NCBI RefSeq assembly: GCF_001748385.1
Contig: NZ_BCLI01000010.1
Coordinates: 1-64,000, forward strand
DNA length: 64,000 bases
Origin: Vulcanisaeta thermophila
Lineage (GTDB): Archaea > Thermoproteota > Thermoprotei > Thermoproteales > Thermocladiaceae
Direction of reading: 5' to 3'
The position numbers were made by a program, and so were the translations under genes. Shown here piece by piece: positions 12,947 to 59,857 of this stretch. Under the pieces are notes generated by a model that was not told the origin of the DNA, did not search any database, and was given only the letters and a program-made list of their open reading frames with translations. Every line of letters starts with the position of its first letter. Within the stretch, counting starts at the first letter, position 1.

Positions 12947-14911
12947 ATGGTTGTTGTTGCTGTTGATGTTGGTGGTACGTTCACGGACTTCGTTGTCCTA
13001 AGGGATGATGGCTCCATCGAGTCATTCAAGGTCCTCAGCACACCCAGGAGCCCTGAGGTGGCTGTTTTTGAGGGTCTTAGGAGGATTAATGCCCATGTTG
13101 ATGAGGTTTTGCATGCAACCACCATTGGGACCAATGCCCTACTCGGTCAGGTGGGCCTTGAACTGCCCAGGGTTGCTCTATTCACCACCAAGGGTTTTAG
13201 GGATGTTATTGAGATTGGCCGTCAGAATAGGCCCAGGCTTTATGATTTATTCTTTGATAAGCCCAGGCCCCTTGTGCCCAGGGAGCTTAGGTTCGAGGTT
13301 GATGAGAGGACGCTGGCCGATGGTAGGGTGGTTAAGGAGGTTGATCCGAGTGAGGTGGAGGAGTACGCGGTTAGGGCTAAGTCCCTGGGTGTGGTTTCCG
13401 TGGCCGTATCCTACCTACACTCGTACATGAACCCCAGTAATGAGGAGGTTACGGGCAGGGTACTCACTAAGTACTTTAACTACGTAACTCTCTCGAGTAG
13501 GGTTGCCCCCGAGCCCAGGGAGTACGAGAGGACCTCAACCGCTGTGGTGAATGCCGTACTAATGCCCATTGTTAGTCAGTACATTAGTAGGTTTTCCGAG
13601 GGACTCAGGGAGCTTGGCGTGGGTAGGTTCTTCATAATGTCCAGCTCAGGTGGTTTGGTGAATAGTGACGAGGCTGTTCAGAGGCCCGTTCAGTTGATTG
13701 AGTCGGGGCCCGCAGCTGGTGCGGTTGCGGCTGCGGAGTACTCTAGGGTGATTGGCGTTAGGAATGTCATTGGTTTCGACATGGGTGGGACCACGGCTAA
13801 GGCATCGTCAATAGTCAATCACGAGCCCGAGGTAACCACCGAGTACGAGGTTGGTGGTGAGGTTCACCATGGTAGGTTGGTTAAGGGTAGTGGCTACCCC
13901 GTGAGGTTCCCGTTTATAGACCTTGCCGAGGTATCCTCAGGCGGTGGCACCATTATTTGGCGTGATGAGGCCGGTGCCTTGAGAGTTGGGCCCCTCAGCG
14001 CTGGTGCTGATCCAGGGCCCATTTGCTATGGCAGGGGTGGTACAGAACCAACACTCACGGATGCCAACCTGGTCCTGGGTAGGATTGGGGATTACCTCCT
14101 TGGTGGTGAAATGAAACTGAATAGGGAGGGCGCCATTAAGGGCCTGGGCAGGTTAGGTGACCCTGTTGATGTTGCCCTAAATGCCATTAGGCTTGCCAAT
14201 ATCGAGATGGCCAGGGCTGTGAGGCTGGTAACGGTCGAGAGGGGGCTCAACCCAGGTGACTTTGCCTTAATGGCCTTTGGAGGCGCCAGTCCCCAGCATG
14301 CCGCGGAGATTGCTGAGGAGCTTGGTATAAGCACGGTAATCATACCACCCGAACCCGGCGCATTCTCAGCCCTTGGTTTGCTAATGGCCGATGAGAGGTT
14401 CGAGGCGAGGATTTCATACCCGAAGGACCTAGAGGAGGGCTTCACGAAGCTTGAGGAGGAGTTGAGCCAAAGGCTTAGTAACGTGTCCTACTTCCTCAGA
14501 TACGCCGACGTTAGGTACGTGGGCCAAGGTTGGGAGTTAACGGTGCCCGTGGGTAGGCCCGCTAGGATTGAGGATGTGGAGAGGACCTTTAATGAGAAGC
14601 ACCAGGCAACCTACGGGTTTAGGTTGAGCAAACCCATTGAGGTGGTTACCATAAGGGTCTTCGCCGTCATAACGAGGGTTAAGCCCAGGTTTGGGGCTAA
14701 GAAACTCGAGGGTGAGGCAAAGCCCAGGTACTTCAGGAGGGTCTTCTTTGATGGTTGGGTTGAGGTCCCCGTTTACTGGCGTGGTGACATACCCATGGGG
14801 CAGGTTATTGAGGGGCCAGCCATAATTGAGGAGTATGGCTCAACAATAGTGGTACCACCCAGGTGGAGGGCTGAGGTTGGTGAGAATTCTGAGGTGGTTA
14901 TGAGGAGGTGA
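12947..14911 (+). CDS. hyuA: Hydantoinase/oxoprolinase subunit A
   Basis: This is the ATP-hydrolysing subunit of the hydantoinase/5-oxoprolinase family, 654 residues. The actin-like fold phosphate loops are clear: DVGGTFTDF at about 6-14, GTNALLG at about 62-68, ESGPAAGA at about 249-256 and FDMGGTT at about 275-281. A C-terminal beta-rich domain ends with [12 protein letters not shown] near 622. With subunit B it should open a cyclic amide (N-methylhydantoin, 5-oxoproline or similar) at the cost of ATP, or carboxylate a ketone as in acetone carboxylase relatives. Sequence alone does not settle the substrate. The stop overlaps the GTG of subunit B (GTGA). The neighbouring peptide transporters would suit a role in peptide or pyroglutamate breakdown. 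Confidence 0.9.
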
Positions 14912-16473
14912 TTGGGGTGGTTTCCTGGGAGATCATTTACAGGGCTTCGGTCTTCATAGCCGAGGAGATGGGCGTGGCGCTCAAGCGCTCGGCATTCTCA
15001 CCCAATATACGTGAGAGGATGGACCACAGCTGTGCCATTACGGACGCAGAGGGCAACATAGTGGCCCAGGCGGAGCACATACCAGTCCACCTGGGCAGTT
15101 TCAGGGTCGGCGTTAAGAACCTCCTTAACTGGTTAAGCAGGGAAGGCGTGGAGCTAGGGCCTGGCGACGCGGTGATTCTCAACGACCCATACATATCGGG
15201 TACTCACCTAAACGATGTGATGGTTATGCAGCCCATATACCATGGGGGTAAGTTAGTGGGTTACGTGGTTAATAAGGCCCACCACGTGGATGTGGGTGGG
15301 CCCGTGCCCGGTAGTATAAACCCGAGTGCCAGGACCATTTATGAGGAGGGGATCGTGATACCCCCCGTTAAGGTTATGGAGCATGGTGAGGTTAAGCGTG
15401 ACATCCTCAATATAATACTAAGTAACTTCAAAACGCCTGAAACCGCCCTCGGGGATATCATGGCCCAATTATCAGCGAACTCCGTGGGCGTCTCCAGGGT
15501 TTTGGAGTTAATTAATAAGTATGGTGTTGATGATGTGCTCAGGGCATGGCGCGAGAGTATTGAGTATGGTAGGAGATTAAGCCTCATGGAGATTAGCAAG
15601 TGGCCCAGGGGTGATTACGAGGCTATTGATTACATGGAACTAGGTAATGAATTACTGCCCATAAGGGTCAGGGTCACCATTAATGACAGTGGGGTAACGG
15701 CGGACTTCACGGGGACTCACGAGCAGGTGGGGGCGCCCATAAATGCGGTTTACGGGGTCACGTACTCCGCCGTATCCTTCACGATAAGGTCGTTAATACA
15801 GGCTGACGTACCAACTAATGAAGGGTTCTATAGCTTAATCAGTGTTGTGGCTCCTGAGGGATCCCTGGTAAATCCCAGGAAGCCGGCCCCAGTCTCAGGG
15901 GGTAATGTGGAGACCACCCAGAGGATTGCCGATGTGGTCTTCAGGGCATTGGCCAACGCCCTACCCAATAAGGTACCCGCCGCGGGCTCTGGAACGATGA
16001 TGAACATAATGATCGGTGGTGTTTACAGGGGCAGTTACTGGGCTTATTATGAAACCGTGGGTGGTGGGACTGGGGGTAGGCCGGGTAAGCCTGGGGTTTC
16101 GGGTGTTCACGTCAACATGACCAATACGCTGAACACGCCCATTGAGATTGCCGAGAGGCAATACCCACTGTTGTTTACCGGTTATAGGATTAGGGAGGGT
16201 AGTGGTGGTAATGGAAGGTACAGGGGTGGTGACGGAATAATAAGGTCATTCGAGGTACTAAGCCCAGCCACACTCTCAATAATGGCCGAGAGGTTCCGGA
16301 CAAGCCCCTGGGGCTTAAATGGTGGGGAGGATGGTAAGCCAGGTAGGGTAATTATAAGGAGGGTTGATGGGAGGATTGAGGAGTTACCGAGTAAGGTAAC
16401 CGTGGATCTAAAGCCAGGGGATGAGGTAATCGTGGAGACACCAGGTGGGGGTGGTTGGGGAAAACCCAATTAA
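14908..16473 (+). CDS. hyuB: Hydantoinase/oxoprolinase subunit B
   Basis: A 521-residue partner of the upstream gene. Family hallmarks are the N-terminal [11 protein letters not shown] region (36-46), [13 protein letters not shown] (91-103), the middle [28 protein letters not shown], and the glycine-rich C-terminus [15 protein letters not shown] and TPGGGGWG. The start is GTG at 14908, overlapping the stop of subunit A by 4 bp. The two subunits form the ATP-dependent amidohydrolase. The length is normal for the family. Confidence 0.9.
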
Positions 16474-52099: not shown

Positions 52100-52328
52100 T
52101 GTAGCTGGTAACCAACTTAAGGTTTTGAATATCAACATAGCCTCAATGTAGAGGTTACCGAATTGGCGGAATTGAACTTGACCAAGTGAGTGTTGCTTAA
52201 TTCCTTATCTTCTATGCATTATTATTTAGTTTTATCTATTTGATTTTATCTGAATTCTTTTAATATTTCTTATTAATTATAGAATTAGTTAATATAAAGT
52301 GCATTTTTTGCACAGGATAATATAATTA

Positions 52329-52356: not shown

Positions 52357-52773
52357 ATGAGTTCGGGTAGGGATAAGATAAGTATGATTGTGTTTTCGGG
52401 CACTGAGGACAAGTTAATACCTGTGGGTGTTATCTCCCAGGCCGCGGCTGCCCTGGGTTATGAGGTGAACATCTTTTTCACTGGGTGGGCCATGTTTAAG
52501 TTGTTAAAGAATCCACCACCCCCTGTTTGGCCCAAGGAGTTTGAGCAGTTTGTTCCTAGGCTTCAGGAGGGTATGGCTAGGATTAAGGCGCCAACGTGGT
52601 TGGACATGGTTAGGGAGGCTAAGAAGATGGGAGCCAAGATCTACGTGTGCTCAATGATGGCGTCAGCCGCGGGCCTTAAGAAGGAGGACTTTGACCCAAG
52701 CCTCGTGGATGACATTGTGGGTGTCACCACATTCCTCGAGATGGCCAAGGGTGGGCAGGTACTATTCATATGA
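52357..52773 (+). CDS. DsrE/DsrF-like sulfur-relay protein (DsrE2 type)
   Basis: A 138-residue DsrE/F/H-fold protein, probably a persulfide carrier. Family features are MIVFSGTEDKLIPVGVIS with alternating AAALGYEVNIFFTGWAM, and the conserved cysteine in YVCSMMASAAGL (near 108-119). It heads a four-gene operon with tusA, a sulfide:quinone oxidoreductase and a DUF1641 protein, so sulfide or sulfane sulfur is the likely substrate. No membrane helices are seen, unlike some DsrE2 proteins. Confidence 0.88.
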   Translation: MSSGRDKISMIVFSGTEDKLIPVGVISQAAAALGYEVNIFFTGWAMFKLLKNPPPPVWPKEFEQFVPRLQEGMARIKAPTWLDMVREAKKMGAKIYVCSMMASAAGLKKEDFDPSLVDDIVGVTTFLEMAKGGQVLFI

Positions 52774-52783
52774 GGTGGTGGGT

Positions 52784-53026
52784 ATGAGCCAGAGTAATAA
52801 GTTACTCGTTGATGCCAGGGGTTTGTCCTGCCCGGGGCCCATTACTGAGCTTGTTAAGGCGTATAGGAATGCGAAGAATGGGGACATCATAGAGGTCTGG
52901 GCCACGGACCCGGGCTTCGAACCAGACATTAAGGCGTGGATTAGCAGGACTGGTAATCAATTAGTGGAGTTGAGGAAGGAGCAGGATAGGATAGTGGCGG
53001 TTATTAGGGTGACGGCTAAGAAGTGA
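52784..53026 (+). CDS. tusA: Sulfur carrier protein TusA
   Basis: An 80-residue TusA/SirA-like carrier with the hallmark CPGP motif (C16-P19) in ARGLSCPGP, followed by the conserved helix and strands ending ELRKEQDRIVAVIRVTAKK. The cysteine carries persulfide or thiosulfonate between DsrE-like and oxidising enzymes. A longer in-frame start at 52691 would run over the DsrE-like gene; ATG 52784 gives the normal size. The stop overlaps a possible GTG start of the next gene. Confidence 0.93.
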   Translation: MSQSNKLLVDARGLSCPGPITELVKAYRNAKNGDIIEVWATDPGFEPDIKAWISRTGNQLVELRKEQDRIVAVIRVTAKK

Positions 53027-53031
53027 GGCCC

Positions 53032-54216
53032 ATGGTTAAGAAAGTCGTTATACTGGGCGGTGGGACTGGGGGTGCCCTGTTGGCTAATAAATTACCCAGG
53101 GATGAGTTCGAGGTCACGATTGTTGATAAACAGGAGTACCACCACTTCTTACCAGCCCTACTCTACATAGCCTTCAGGGGCTATAGGAAGCCCATTAAGC
53201 GTGGAATAAAGACCCTACTGAAGCCCTGGGTTAACTTCATACCCAGTGGTGCCAGGGCGGTTAATCTATACGATAGGTACGTGGAGCTTGAGAACGGTAA
53301 GAGGCTGAATTATGACTACCTGGTCATAGCTACAGGAGCCACCATGGACTACTCAAAGGTGCCTGGGCTTGATAAGGTTGTGGAGCAGTTCGGCAATTAC
53401 CACTCCACCGAGGAGAATGCGTGGAAGGTTTGGAATAGCCTTAATTCCATGGGGAGCGGGACATTGGTCATTGGGCTCACCTACGAGCGTTATAGATGCC
53501 CACCAAGCCCGTTGGAGGGTGTGTTCCTTGCCGAGGAGTACTTTAGGATGAGGGGTATTAGGGATAAGGTTAGGATTGTTTACATCACCTTCTACCCAAA
53601 GCCATACCCAGCGGAGGGCATTAATGAAATTGTGGAGCCACTACTCAAGGAGAGGGGTATTGAGTACCTGACATTGTTTATGGTGGATCACGTGGACCCT
53701 GAAAAGAGGGTTATCTACTTCATGGAGGGTGAGGAGATTAAGTACGATGTCTTCATACCCATACCACCACACGCGGGTGCGGATATAAAATACACGCCCG
53801 AGGATGTCCTCGATAGTGATAGGTTCGTGAAGGCCGATAAATTCACCAATAGGGTTCAGGGGTTCGATGATGCATTCGTGATAGGTGATGCCTCAGCCCT
53901 CCCAGTGGCTAAGACAGGCGTCACCGCTCACCTCCAGGCCGATGTCGTGGCCAAGTTACTAATGGGCGAAACCGCAGCCAATACCGGCCGCACCCACTGC
54001 CCATTTGATGTGGGTTATGGGTTGGGGACCTTCGTGATAAGTGACTTCAGGAACCCAGCGCTTAGGTTCCCCGTGGGTAAGCTACCCCACCTATTCAAGG
54101 TGGCGTTCATGGCATCCTACTGGGACATGATACTATATCCTGAGCTCTGGGACCCCATATTCAACGCCTACTTCAGTGCCACTGAGCCCAGTAAGTTAAG
54201 GGTGTTCTACGGGTGA
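53032..54216 (+). CDS. Sulfide:quinone oxidoreductase-like flavoprotein
   Basis: A 394-residue FAD-dependent disulfide oxidoreductase of the sulfide:quinone oxidoreductase/flavocytochrome c group. The dinucleotide motif GGGTGGALLANKL (9-21), ATGAT (100-104) and VIGDAS (283-288) bind FAD. C156 in YRCPPSPLEG and C323 match two of the three redox cysteines of known SQRs; the third is not seen. A C-terminal aromatic tail (SYWDMILYPELWD) probably attaches to the membrane. GTG 53023, overlapping the tusA stop, is an alternative start. Confidence 0.9.
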   Translation: MVKKVVILGGGTGGALLANKLPRDEFEVTIVDKQEYHHFLPALLYIAFRGYRKPIKRGIKTLLKPWVNFIPSGARAVNLYDRYVELENGKRLNYDYLVIATGATMDYSKVPGLDKVVEQFGNYHSTEENAWKVWNSLNSMGSGTLVIGLTYERYRCPPSPLEGVFLAEEYFRMRGIRDKVRIVYITFYPKPYPAEGINEIVEPLLKERGIEYLTLFMVDHVDPEKRVIYFMEGEEIKYDVFIPIPPHAGADIKYTPEDVLDSDRFVKADKFTNRVQGFDDAFVIGDASALPVAKTGVTAHLQADVVAKLLMGETAANTGRTHCPFDVGYGLGTFVISDFRNPALRFPVGKLPHLFKVAFMASYWDMILYPELWDPIFNAYFSATEPSKLRVFYG

Positions 54217-54626
54217 TGGGCATGGAGTCTGGGGCCCAAAACCTCACCGAGGTTGAGGGGAAGCTCCTCGAGATAATAAGCCCTGAGTACATGAGCTCCC
54301 TTATCAAGTTCCTTGGAATAATAAGGAAGCTTGATGAGTTGGGTGTGCTGGATACTCTGAACGACCTCCTCGAGCCTGAGGTGGTTGGTGAGTTAATGAG
54401 CACCTTAATAACCACGAACTCCACATACCTAATGTCCAACATGGATGATGCCATGGGGGCCATGGCTAAGCTCCTAGACGCGTTTAGGGAGGCTTCGAAC
54501 GCCGCCGCTAATGACAATAGATCAGTCATTTTACTACTCACTGAATTATTGACTGATGAGGATGCTAAGAGGGGCCTTAGATTCCTTAATGCATTGTTGA
54601 GGAGTCTTGGTAGGAGGCTTAGGTAG
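54216..54626 (+). CDS. DUF1641 protein
   Basis: A 136-residue helical protein with the DUF1641 features: hydrophobic helices LIKFLGIIRKLDELGVLDTL and PEVVGELMSTLI, and the small-residue DDAMGAMAKLL. The family is often encoded next to sulfide:quinone oxidoreductases or formate dehydrogenases and may be an accessory or membrane-docking subunit; its biochemical role is not known. ATG 54216 overlaps the upstream stop (TGATG). It ends 38 bp before the convergent regulator gene. Confidence 0.82.
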   Translation: MGMESGAQNLTEVEGKLLEIISPEYMSSLIKFLGIIRKLDELGVLDTLNDLLEPEVVGELMSTLITTNSTYLMSNMDDAMGAMAKLLDAFREASNAAANDNRSVILLLTELLTDEDAKRGLRFLNALLRSLGRRLR

Positions 54627-54664: not shown

Positions 54665-55549
54665 TTATTTATACCTGTATATTGTTCTTACGTACATTAT
54701 GTAGGCCCTTAAGGCATTATCATTAGCATCATTACCTGGCCTGTACTCTTCAAACCTTAATGAACCATTTTCCAGGGTGAGTATGTACGCCTTCACGGTG
54801 CCCTCCTCAAGCTCCACGGGTTTTCTTGACGTTATTATCTTAAGGGTGTAGTCACCCCTCTTGTACACGGCCTTGTCCTCGCAGTTTGACATGAGTAATT
54901 CCAGGGCTACCTGTATTGGTGATACACCCGTTAATCTAAAGACCTTGATGTTATAGTTGCCATTGAAGATAGCATCTATGTAGGGCTTAACCTTATCATT
55001 GTCCAGGAGTAGGTCCATGATTAATGATACAACACCACCATTGTTAACAACGGTATTCACTACCTCGGCAAAGCTCTCTGGTTTATAATTGCTCAATCGT
55101 TGCATGGCGCAGGTACACTTAGTGAACTCTAAATACCCAGGTGGTACAGTATCTGTGTGAAATGCCACTGAGGATGCCCTGAGGGTCCTGTACATCCTGA
55201 AGGTCATGCTTGACACGGTACCAAGCCCAATGTCTATTATATAGAGGCCGGGGACTACGTCGATCTTATCAAATGCGAGGTTCTTGAAGTTAAGCCTATA
55301 TAGGTACTTCCTCCTTTCTGTGACGTTCATATAGGCGTCGATTAATCCCCTCTTACGTAATAGGTTTATTGCGTTCCTGGCCGTCCTCACGCCGAGCCCC
55401 GTCCCCTTCACCACCTCGTCAAATGTTAAGTAGCTCTTACCATTTATTAAATGCTCAAACATTAAGTACTCAATTACCAACCTGGCGGATAGCGGTATAC
55501 CCTCTAACTCCTCCATTGTGTCCTCCTCCCTACTCTCCTCGGGGCTCAT
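54665..55549 (-). CDS. Winged-helix protein fused to a tetrapyrrole-methylase-like domain
   Basis: A 294-residue protein. Residues about 18-92 form a winged helix (SARLVIEYLMFEHL, then VVKGTGLGVRTARNAINLLRKRGLI and the wing ERRKYLYRL). From about 99 it resembles the tetrapyrrole (corrin/porphyrin) methylase fold: GLYIIDIGLGTVSSMTFR matches the family's first strand and glycine loop, and GGVVSLIMDLLL occupies the place of the GDP motif. LTGVSPIQVALELL matches PGvSSxqaaaa. The GDP motif is lost, so it is more likely a ligand-sensing than a catalytic domain. It lies convergent to the sulfur operon and next to trxB, 3.3 kb from a siroheme decarboxylase. This assignment is mine and is from pattern reading. 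Confidence 0.65.
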   Translation of the reverse strand: MSPEESREEDTMEELEGIPLSARLVIEYLMFEHLINGKSYLTFDEVVKGTGLGVRTARNAINLLRKRGLIDAYMNVTERRKYLYRLNFKNLAFDKIDVVPGLYIIDIGLGTVSSMTFRMYRTLRASSVAFHTDTVPPGYLEFTKCTCAMQRLSNYKPESFAEVVNTVVNNGGVVSLIMDLLLDNDKVKPYIDAIFNGNYNIKVFRLTGVSPIQVALELLMSNCEDKAVYKRGDYTLKIITSRKPVELEEGTVKAYILTLENGSLRFEEYRPGNDANDNALRAYIMYVRTIYRYK

Positions 55550-55595: not shown

Positions 55596-56603
55596 TTAAT
55601 GGCGGTTCATTCCGAACTTCCTAACAATGTAGTTATACGCTGAGTAGGCCGCCAGGGCGCCCTGCCCCGCGGCCACCACTATTTGCCTGAAGTCCCTGGG
55701 TGTTAGGTCCACGCAGTCCCCTGCCGCGTAGATACCCGGTATGCTGGTCTCCATGAGGTGGTTGGTCTTTATGTAACCGTCCTTCGACAACTCCAGCCCT
55801 ATTCTCTTGAAGAAGTCCACGGGCGGTTCAGCACCTATCTCAATAAATACACCATCCACTGGTAGCTCAAAGACCTCCCCAGTGTCTGTCCTCTGTAGCA
55901 CTGCCTTCCTAAGCACCTTATCACCCTTCAGTTCTTTAACCACGGTATTCCACAGTATCTCTATCTTGGGGTGGTGGAGGAGTAGGTCTTGGTAGTACTT
56001 CTCAGCCCTTAGCTGGTTCCTCCTATGTATTATGTACACCTTACTTGCATACTCAGTCAATAGGAGCGCCGCTGATGCCGCTGAGTCGCCACCACCAACA
56101 ACAGCCACCACCTTACCCTTAAATAACGGTGCGTCACAGGGTGCGCAGTAGCTAACTCCCCTGCCGTTGTACGTATCCTCACCAGGCACATTGAGCTTCC
56201 TCCTCCTCTCACCAACGGCTAGTATGATGGTTCTTGAGGTGTACTCATCGCCATTCATGGTGTATATCTTAAAGAGATCCCCAGCCCTCTCCACATTCTC
56301 CACAACATCGATTATTATGGGCACATTGTAGTACTTAACGTGCTCCTCAAACTTACTCACTAAGTCTGGGCCCATTATCCTCGTATAACCAAGGTAATTC
56401 TCGACCCAACCAGCCTTTGCCACTTGCCCGCCTATTTCCTCGGTTATTATTGCCGTGGTTAATCCATACCTAGCAGCGTATATGGCCGCGGACATCCCAG
56501 CAGGGCCCCCACCCACTATAATCACGTCGTAAACCTTACCCGTTAATTCCTCGGAGGCACCGAAATCCATCTTTGTTACGGTTATCTTCAAGCTCATCGC
56601 CAT
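55596..56603 (-). CDS. trxB: Thioredoxin reductase
   Basis: A 335-residue FAD/NAD(P) pyridine nucleotide-disulfide oxidoreductase of the low-molecular-weight type. FAD-binding GGGPAG is at 31-36, the redox pair C153-x-x-C156 in SYCAPCDAP (the bacterial form is usually CATC), GGGDSA near 170-175 for the nucleotide, and AAGDC near the C-terminus. It transfers electrons to thioredoxin or glutaredoxin-like proteins. Residues MAMSL give two near start choices (56603 and 56597). The gene is upstream of the winged-helix fusion on the same strand. Confidence 0.93.
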   Translation of the reverse strand: MAMSLKITVTKMDFGASEELTGKVYDVIIVGGGPAGMSAAIYAARYGLTTAIITEEIGGQVAKAGWVENYLGYTRIMGPDLVSKFEEHVKYYNVPIIIDVVENVERAGDLFKIYTMNGDEYTSRTIILAVGERRRKLNVPGEDTYNGRGVSYCAPCDAPLFKGKVVAVVGGGDSAASAALLLTEYASKVYIIHRRNQLRAEKYYQDLLLHHPKIEILWNTVVKELKGDKVLRKAVLQRTDTGEVFELPVDGVFIEIGAEPPVDFFKRIGLELSKDGYIKTNHLMETSIPGIYAAGDCVDLTPRDFRQIVVAAGQGALAAYSAYNYIVRKFGMNRH

Positions 56604-58870: not shown

Positions 58871-59857
58871 GTGGAACTTAGCGATAAGGATAGGGAATTA
58901 CTAATGGAGCTTCAGTACAACTTCCCAATTGTAAGGAGGCCCTTCTATGAAATAGCCATGAAGGTTGGGGTCACCGAGGACTGGGTTCTGGGGAGGGTTA
59001 GGGATTTCGTGAGGATGGGGATTATTAGGAGAATTGGAGCCCTTGTTAATTACAAATCCAGGGGTCTGGTGGCGGCGCTCGTGGGTGTTGAGGTGCCTGG
59101 GGACCTCGTTCATAGGGTGGCCGAGGCCGTTAATGCGGACCCCATGGTTACGCACAACTTCCTCAGGGATTATAAACCCTACAACCTATGGTACGTGACT
59201 AAGGCTAGGAGTAGGGAGGAGCTTAAGAATAAGGTTCTCAATATGTTAGGCAGGTTCGGGTTGGAGAATTACGTGATACTCTTCGCCATAAGGACTTACA
59301 AGATAGACGTGAAGTTCGACCTCATGAGGGGCGTGTCAAGAGCTAAGTGGAACCTACTTCCCGAGGAGGTCCCGCCAATAGAGAGCACGGGGTTACCCAG
59401 TGAGTTCTTCAGGATGATTAGGAGCATAGAGGTAAAGCCAGAGCCCTTCAATGACATTGCCAGGTTTGTGGGTAAGTCCGTGGATGAACTCGGCGACTTA
59501 ATAATGGAACTTAAGAGAGTTGGTGTCATAAGGGATTTCTACGCAACCCTGGACCCAGAATCCATAGGGTTTAGGGAGAATGCTATGGTGGTGTTCAGTA
59601 TAGAGCCCGACAGGTGCGGTGAGGTGGCTAGCATTGAGGAGGCCACGCATGTGGTTCACAGGGAGACAGTACCGGGTAAGTGGCCCTATGACTGCTACTT
59701 CATGATACACGGTGTGAGTAAGGAAGTCATTGAGAGCACGGTTAGCGCGAGGCTAGGGGGGCTTGGGGTTAGGGATTACAGACTGCTTTATAGTATTGAG
59801 AATCTACTGCCCACAATGGCCAGGAGGCTTGAGTTGGGTAATTTATCCCCCACCTAA
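58871..59857 (+). CDS. Siroheme decarboxylase, fused AhbA-AhbB type (Lrp/AsnC fold)
   Basis: A 328-residue tandem of two AsnC/Lrp-like units (winged helix plus RAM-like domain). Each unit has the siroheme decarboxylase signature. Unit 1 shows GIIRRIGALVNYKSRGL and THNFLRDYKPYNLWYVTKA. Unit 2 shows GVIRDFYATLDPESIGFRENAMVVF, followed by THVVHRETVPGKWPYDCYFMIHG. AhbA/AhbB remove two carboxylates from siroheme on the alternative haem route; NirD/L/G/H do the same for haem d1. Fusion of the two chains is known in some archaea. A plain Lrp regulator is less likely because of the YNLWY/RENAM-type motifs. The start is GTG. Confidence 0.85.
   Translation: MELSDKDRELLMELQYNFPIVRRPFYEIAMKVGVTEDWVLGRVRDFVRMGIIRRIGALVNYKSRGLVAALVGVEVPGDLVHRVAEAVNADPMVTHNFLRDYKPYNLWYVTKARSREELKNKVLNMLGRFGLENYVILFAIRTYKIDVKFDLMRGVSRAKWNLLPEEVPPIESTGLPSEFFRMIRSIEVKPEPFNDIARFVGKSVDELGDLIMELKRVGVIRDFYATLDPESIGFRENAMVVFSIEPDRCGEVASIEEATHVVHRETVPGKWPYDCYFMIHGVSKEVIESTVSARLGGLGVRDYRLLYSIENLLPTMARRLELGNLSPT

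Follow-up and report, generated by a model that had tools for sequence, protein, structure and literature searches.

The window analysed here, a 64,000-nucleotide stretch of the genome of the archaeon Vulcanisaeta thermophila, carries a gene whose product joins an N-terminal winged helix to a degenerate tetrapyrrole-methylase (TPM) domain (Table 1). The open reading frame and all the motifs quoted in a sequence-only reading of this DNA were recovered exactly as described there, with IIDIGLG at residues 104–110, SSMTFR at 113–118, GGVVSLIMDLLL at 171–182 and LTGVSPIQVALELL at 206–219 of the 294-residue protein. The frame is not a product of chance, since genome searches show it to be kept in most congeners, at 57%–61% identity, and throughout the order, with 37%–44% identity in two sister genera, Caldivirga and Thermocladium, and remoter relatives order-wide. 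In Vulcanisaeta, the fusion gene converges on the DUF1641-SQR-TusA-DsrE gene cluster, whose SQR-like flavoprotein (53023–54216, forward strand) has as its best NCBIfam match the type III sulfide quinone reductase selenoprotein subtype, at a score well below the cut-off. On the other side, trxB is located immediately upstream of the fusion gene in all Vulcanisaeta examined; the gap, usually of 42–50 bp, holds a conserved TATA-like element, TTTATTT, suggesting that the fusion gene may be transcribed on its own from this promoter-like sequence. The same element weakens co-transcription with trxB as proof of common control.

Table 1. Features of the fusion gene and its surroundings in the 64,000-nucleotide window.
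Feature	Coordinates	Strand	Basis
Whole gene, winged helix plus degenerate TPM domain, 294 aa, ATG start	54665..55549	-	ORF and conservation across Thermoproteales
Winged-helix domain, residues 18–92	55274..55498	-	HTH_36/MarR_2 matches; helices and wing strands in model
TPM N-subdomain, residues 96–220 (β1, α1, β2 ... β5, α)	54890..55264	-	hhalign, Foldseek
Reduced TPM C-subdomain, residues 221–294, five strands, usual helices absent	54668..54889	-	hhalign, model
IDIGLG, altered SAM loop 1	55220..55237	-	alignment; Asp106 98% conserved
KCTC, residues 144–147, marker of the CTC clade	55109..55120	-	alignment
DLLLD, residues 179–183, in place of the GDP motif	55001..55015	-	alignment; Asp183 invariant (45/45)
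trxB (thioredoxin reductase), directly upstream of the fusion gene	55596..56603	-	TIGR01292 above cut-off
Convergent sulfur operon: DsrE-like, TusA, SQR/FCSD-like flavoprotein, DUF1641-like	52357..54626	+	neighbour annotation
GTGCATTTTTTGCAC palindrome (GTGCA-N5-TGCAC), sulfur-operon promoter, candidate operator	52299..52313	.	conserved in aligned Vulcanisaeta loci

The position of the gene had been taken to fit siroheme or haem sensing. Siroheme decarboxylase is indeed encoded in the window, with AhbA and AhbB fused in a single ORF (58871–59857, forward strand) and both halves scoring above the NCBIfam cut-off. This ORF, however, is 3.3 kb away from the fusion gene, behind trxB, two more genes and a small ORF, and in other Vulcanisaeta galactokinase/galT-like genes intervene as well, whereas outside Vulcanisaeta the fusion gene has different neighbours and no conserved haem-gene context. 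We therefore rejected siroheme or haem sensing as the leading idea; the case for it is weak, and sulfur handling fits the neighbourhood better.

The winged helix is real, although it stays below threshold when the window protein is considered singly. In the single-sequence Pfam scan, residues 18–70 gave a sub-threshold match to HTH_36 (PF13730; E = 7.5e-4), and 26 of the 27 homologues scanned in the same manner matched this family, the best with E = 3.8e-7. None of the MarR, MsvR and TrmB families reached its curated cut-off (MarR_2 scored 12.5 bits versus the required 27, and MsvR 15.3 versus 220), and a search of a viral fold library yielded little beyond HTH matches. The recognition helix, approximately residues 54–68, contains five Lys/Arg and no Asp/Glu residues. 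The winged helix and its basic recognition helix are shared with one-component regulators of the MarR, TrmB/TrmBL2 and HTH_36 types, but the presumed sensor is derived from a TPM rather than being a MarR dimer or a TrmB sugar domain.

Since the window protein alone shows no match to the TPM family PF00590 in the single-sequence Pfam scan, the TPM relationship could be assessed only with a family of homologues. PF00590 was matched singly by 17 of 27 homologues at E ≤ 1 (best 4.3e-5). When a profile of 45 family members was compared, using hhalign, with a profile of 65 TPMs from the same genomes (SUMT, DphB and cobalamin methylases), the two aligned with 96.8% probability (E = 2.5e-10) over 207 columns, that is, nearly the whole TPM. 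Profiles of individual subgroups gave 95.6% (the g3 members), 91.1% (Vulcanisaeta, Caldivirga and Thermocladium), 81.9% (the long Thermoproteaceae forms), 55.4% (Vulcanisaeta members alone) and 16.1% (the short forms), whereas seven control families from the same loci, comparable in size but unrelated both to the TPMs and to the winged helix-TPM family, did not exceed 13%. The family profile also recovered genuine TPMs from the genomes, with E of about 1e-8, over the domain columns. The resemblance of the C-terminal domain to TPMs is thus far beyond chance.

Structural models point to the same fold. AlphaFold2 with 11 sequences reached a pLDDT of 82 and a pTM of 0.73 for the full-length protein; the TPM domain modelled alone reached 83 and 0.72. 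A single-sequence search of the PDB with the window protein gave no useful match, but in Foldseek searches of the PDB members of the TPM superfamily accounted for 47 of the 50 best matches to the full-length model, the other three being the winged-helix protein TrmBL2, and for all 50 with the domain-only model. The N-subdomain superimposed on 3hh1 with a TM-score of 0.71, whereas whole-domain TM-scores were just 0.3–0.5, with an rmsd near 12 Å, which implies either that the subdomains are positioned relative to each other differently than in TPMs or that their arrangement is poorly modelled. The TPM match proposed in the sequence-only reading is accordingly upheld for the N-domain but not in its confinement to it: in the model, residues 225–288 form five strands, and hhalign matches this region to a reduced TPM C-domain, as far as TPM column 255.

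The fusion is restricted to Thermoproteales and nearly universal within the order. An uninterrupted member is present in 38 of the 45 Thermoproteales genomes; of the remainder, two have interrupted copies (G009 and G042), two have copies cut by contig ends and three have no member. Across some 350 other genomes of the phylum, no match covered both domains; the matches obtained were to the winged helix only, and those inspected were NAD kinases. Phylogenetic analysis separated a clade marked by a Cys-Thr-Cys (CTC) motif, which comprises the members from Vulcanisaeta, Caldivirga and Thermocladium and the short Thermoproteaceae forms, from a clade of long Thermoproteaceae forms and from the g3 clade, both of which lack the motif. 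Support for the CTC clade is modest (82/79), and long branches were flagged in the tree. The short forms, approximately 190–200 aa in length, retain TKCTC and solely the N-terminal half of the TPM domain.

The CTC clade recurs next to sulfur genes. Beyond Vulcanisaeta, the short CTC forms of three genomes (G031, G034 and G038) have TusA, DsrE, TusA-like or rhodanese genes as neighbours. The short form of G041 is divergent from a PAPS reductase gene (CysH), with a rhodanese gene beyond. In a rough test on closed genomes, TusA, DsrE or rhodanese genes occurred within 4 kb at four of six roughly independent CTC-clade loci (Vulcanisaeta and the short forms of G031, G038 and G034), versus 0.19 expected (P = 3.5e-5), a value to be read as suggestive because the markers were chosen after the context had been seen; in the same genomes, no long form was found within 4 kb of a sulfur-relay gene. 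Every Thermoproteaceae genome that has a short CTC form (six of six) shows at least five TusA matches, versus 4 of the 13 without one (P = 0.008). The association does not extend to the members from Caldivirga and Thermocladium, which have the CTC motif and no adjoining sulfur genes. The long Thermoproteaceae forms are mostly found downstream of a MoeB/ThiF-like gene, often overlapping it, and in several cases adjoin a CysM-like gene. The g3 genus keeps two members, one of them between purB and purA, and its genomes gave no TusA, DsrE_2 or rhodanese match. In G031, two short CTC paralogues (L136:6612-7181 and 14569-15129) flank a cluster of lipoate synthase, 2-oxoacid dehydrogenase-like and lipoyl ligase genes, which includes a TusA-like gene; these gene names come from reading the sequences.

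Both SAM-binding loops of TPMs are altered in the family. The GDP motif, kept as G-[D/S]-x in 64 of the 65 TPMs, is present in none of the 45 family members, where its position is occupied by another segment (DLLLD in the window protein, NSLLD in many long forms); the loss of the motif noted in the sequence-only reading thus holds family-wide, and no homologue with a catalytic GDP motif was found. The two results named in advance as refuting the sequence-only reading, an unrelated fold and a homologue of this kind, both failed to appear. The GxGPGD loop after β1 is likewise absent, being replaced by GLGTVSS in the window protein and by AGD or less in the long forms. By contrast, three polar positions of the domain are conserved, namely Asp183 (100%), Asp106 at the end of β1 (98%) and Thr132 at the end of β2 (91%), and the profile alignment would place all three at the strand ends lining the TPM cleft; the pocket may have been rewired.

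Three alternatives were weighed, and we would rank them in the order given here or near it. The domain might still bind SAM or SAH, reporting methylation or SAM state, or else siroheme or another tetrapyrrole. Its TPM ancestry, the partly retained glycine loop of β1 in Vulcanisaeta (GLG) and the retained GVS after β5 speak for such binding, and a SAM-cycle signal would suit the sulfur and adenylate neighbours (CysM-like, CysH and purA/purB); nevertheless, we consider it unlikely, given that GDP and the PGD of loop 1 are gone, that loop 1 is shortened further in the long Thermoproteaceae forms, and that the short forms, having no C-half, are missing half of the TPM cleft. A tetrapyrrole ligand is further disfavoured by the distance of AhbAB and the unconserved haem-gene context. 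Alternatively, the TPM remnant could be a ligand-free dimerisation scaffold, with regulation by expression level or cysteine oxidation alone. TPMs are obligate dimers, short paralogues persist with half a domain and sequence divergence is high, all of which agree with a scaffold, but the invariant polar residues appear to occupy the ligand-binding strand ends of TPMs rather than a packing surface, and we regard this option, too, as improbable. Finally, that the protein is still an active methyltransferase, to which the winged helix is an accessory, is very hard to credit with the catalytic motifs gone family-wide, even though apparently intact NAD kinases with a homologous winged helix occur in the same phylum.

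These NAD kinases deserve a separate remark, because their existence means that a winged helix need not denote a transcription factor. They are encoded in Thermoproteales and other Thermoproteota (L143–L154, e.g. L146:1276-2349), and their winged helix is homologous to that of the family (E down to 3e-15) but located at the C-terminus of an apparently intact kinase.

The explanation that we favour, as somewhat better than an even bet, is that of a one-component regulator combining a winged helix with a non-catalytic sensor of TPM origin, with the CTC clade controlling sulfur and thiol-redox genes. Its parts differ in strength. The TPM-derived domain is almost certainly non-catalytic, and the protein is very probably a DNA-binding regulator, as the sequence-only reading had supposed, in which the winged helix would bind DNA and act in repression, while the C-terminal domain, having lost methyl transfer, would serve as a dimerisation and sensor module. 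We lean slightly towards a ligand being sensed, presumably in a former SAM/substrate cleft rebuilt around Asp106, Thr132 and Asp183. That the CTC clade, including the window gene, controls sulfur-relay and thiol-redox genes has about an even chance; in the window, the targets would be the adjoining DsrE-TusA-SQR operon and perhaps trxB. The Cys-Thr-Cys motif might constitute a thiol or persulfide switch, which we view as doubtful. A CxxC redox switch is absent, the CTC clade having CxC and the g3 members none, and a cysteine switch common to the whole family was rejected, g3 and the long forms being devoid of CTC. A parallel in function is SurR of Thermococcales, a winged-helix archaeal regulator of sulfur-responsive genes of the ArsR type with a CxxC switch (cf. 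PMC12162507). The likeness would be one of functional analogy alone, in sulfur-responsive regulation, and the cysteines differ: CxxC in an ArsR-type protein versus CxC inside a TPM domain.

A candidate operator is provided by the palindrome at the sulfur promoter, which is flanked by a TATA-like stretch on one side and the start of DsrE on the other. The same GTGCA-N5-TGCAC arrangement recurs in this genome before a second DsrE-family gene (G000:C1:390117-390131), at a distance of about 55 bp, and is found at the same distance before the orthologues of that gene in G035 (L178) and G036 (L189), several others having it with one or two mismatches. When up to two mismatches are allowed, 12 of the approximately 19 orthologues that this second gene has across Thermoproteales are preceded by it, versus 26 of 562 upstream regions (about 5%) of other genes in the loci. 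GTGCA-N5-TGCAC is thus a candidate operator of a sulfur regulator, which may be a different one, because the palindrome precedes DsrE in G035 and G036, genomes without a CTC-type member; it is also missing at the second DsrE gene in several genomes with short CTC forms. No copy was found upstream of the fusion gene itself, and an occurrence upstream of a CysM-like gene was a single, unconserved case (G043). The most specific version of the favoured explanation, namely a class of TPM-fold sensors in which the CTC clade would perceive reactive sulfur or thiol state through Cys-Thr-Cys and control the DsrE-TusA-SQR relay through this palindrome, is in our estimation quite unlikely as a whole.

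The architecture, real and found order-wide, is apparently undescribed, in line with the sequence-only reading: no paper in the literature searched describes a regulator in which a tetrapyrrole methylase is combined with a winged helix or HTH. Enzyme folds are often borrowed by regulators as sensors, and the novelty resides in the fold that is used rather than in deriving a sensor from an enzyme; we know of no earlier case of the TPM fold as the sensor of a regulator. Few regulators of Thermoproteales have, to our knowledge, been characterised, and the family offers a concrete handle on the control of sulfur-relay genes in sulfur-dependent hyperthermophiles, while the conserved replacement of GDP provides a direct way of asking what the vacated methylase cleft binds today. 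Compared with the TPMs of PF00590 (SUMT/CobA, CbiF/CobM, the CysG C-domain, RsmI and DphB), the homologous domain comprises both subdomains but is devoid of GDP and GxGPGD, reduced in its C-domain and fused to a winged helix. The nearest TPMs by profile form a SUMT-like Thermoproteales subfamily of 215–235 aa (L091 in G000, L092 and L093), which scores below every NCBIfam equivalog cut-off.
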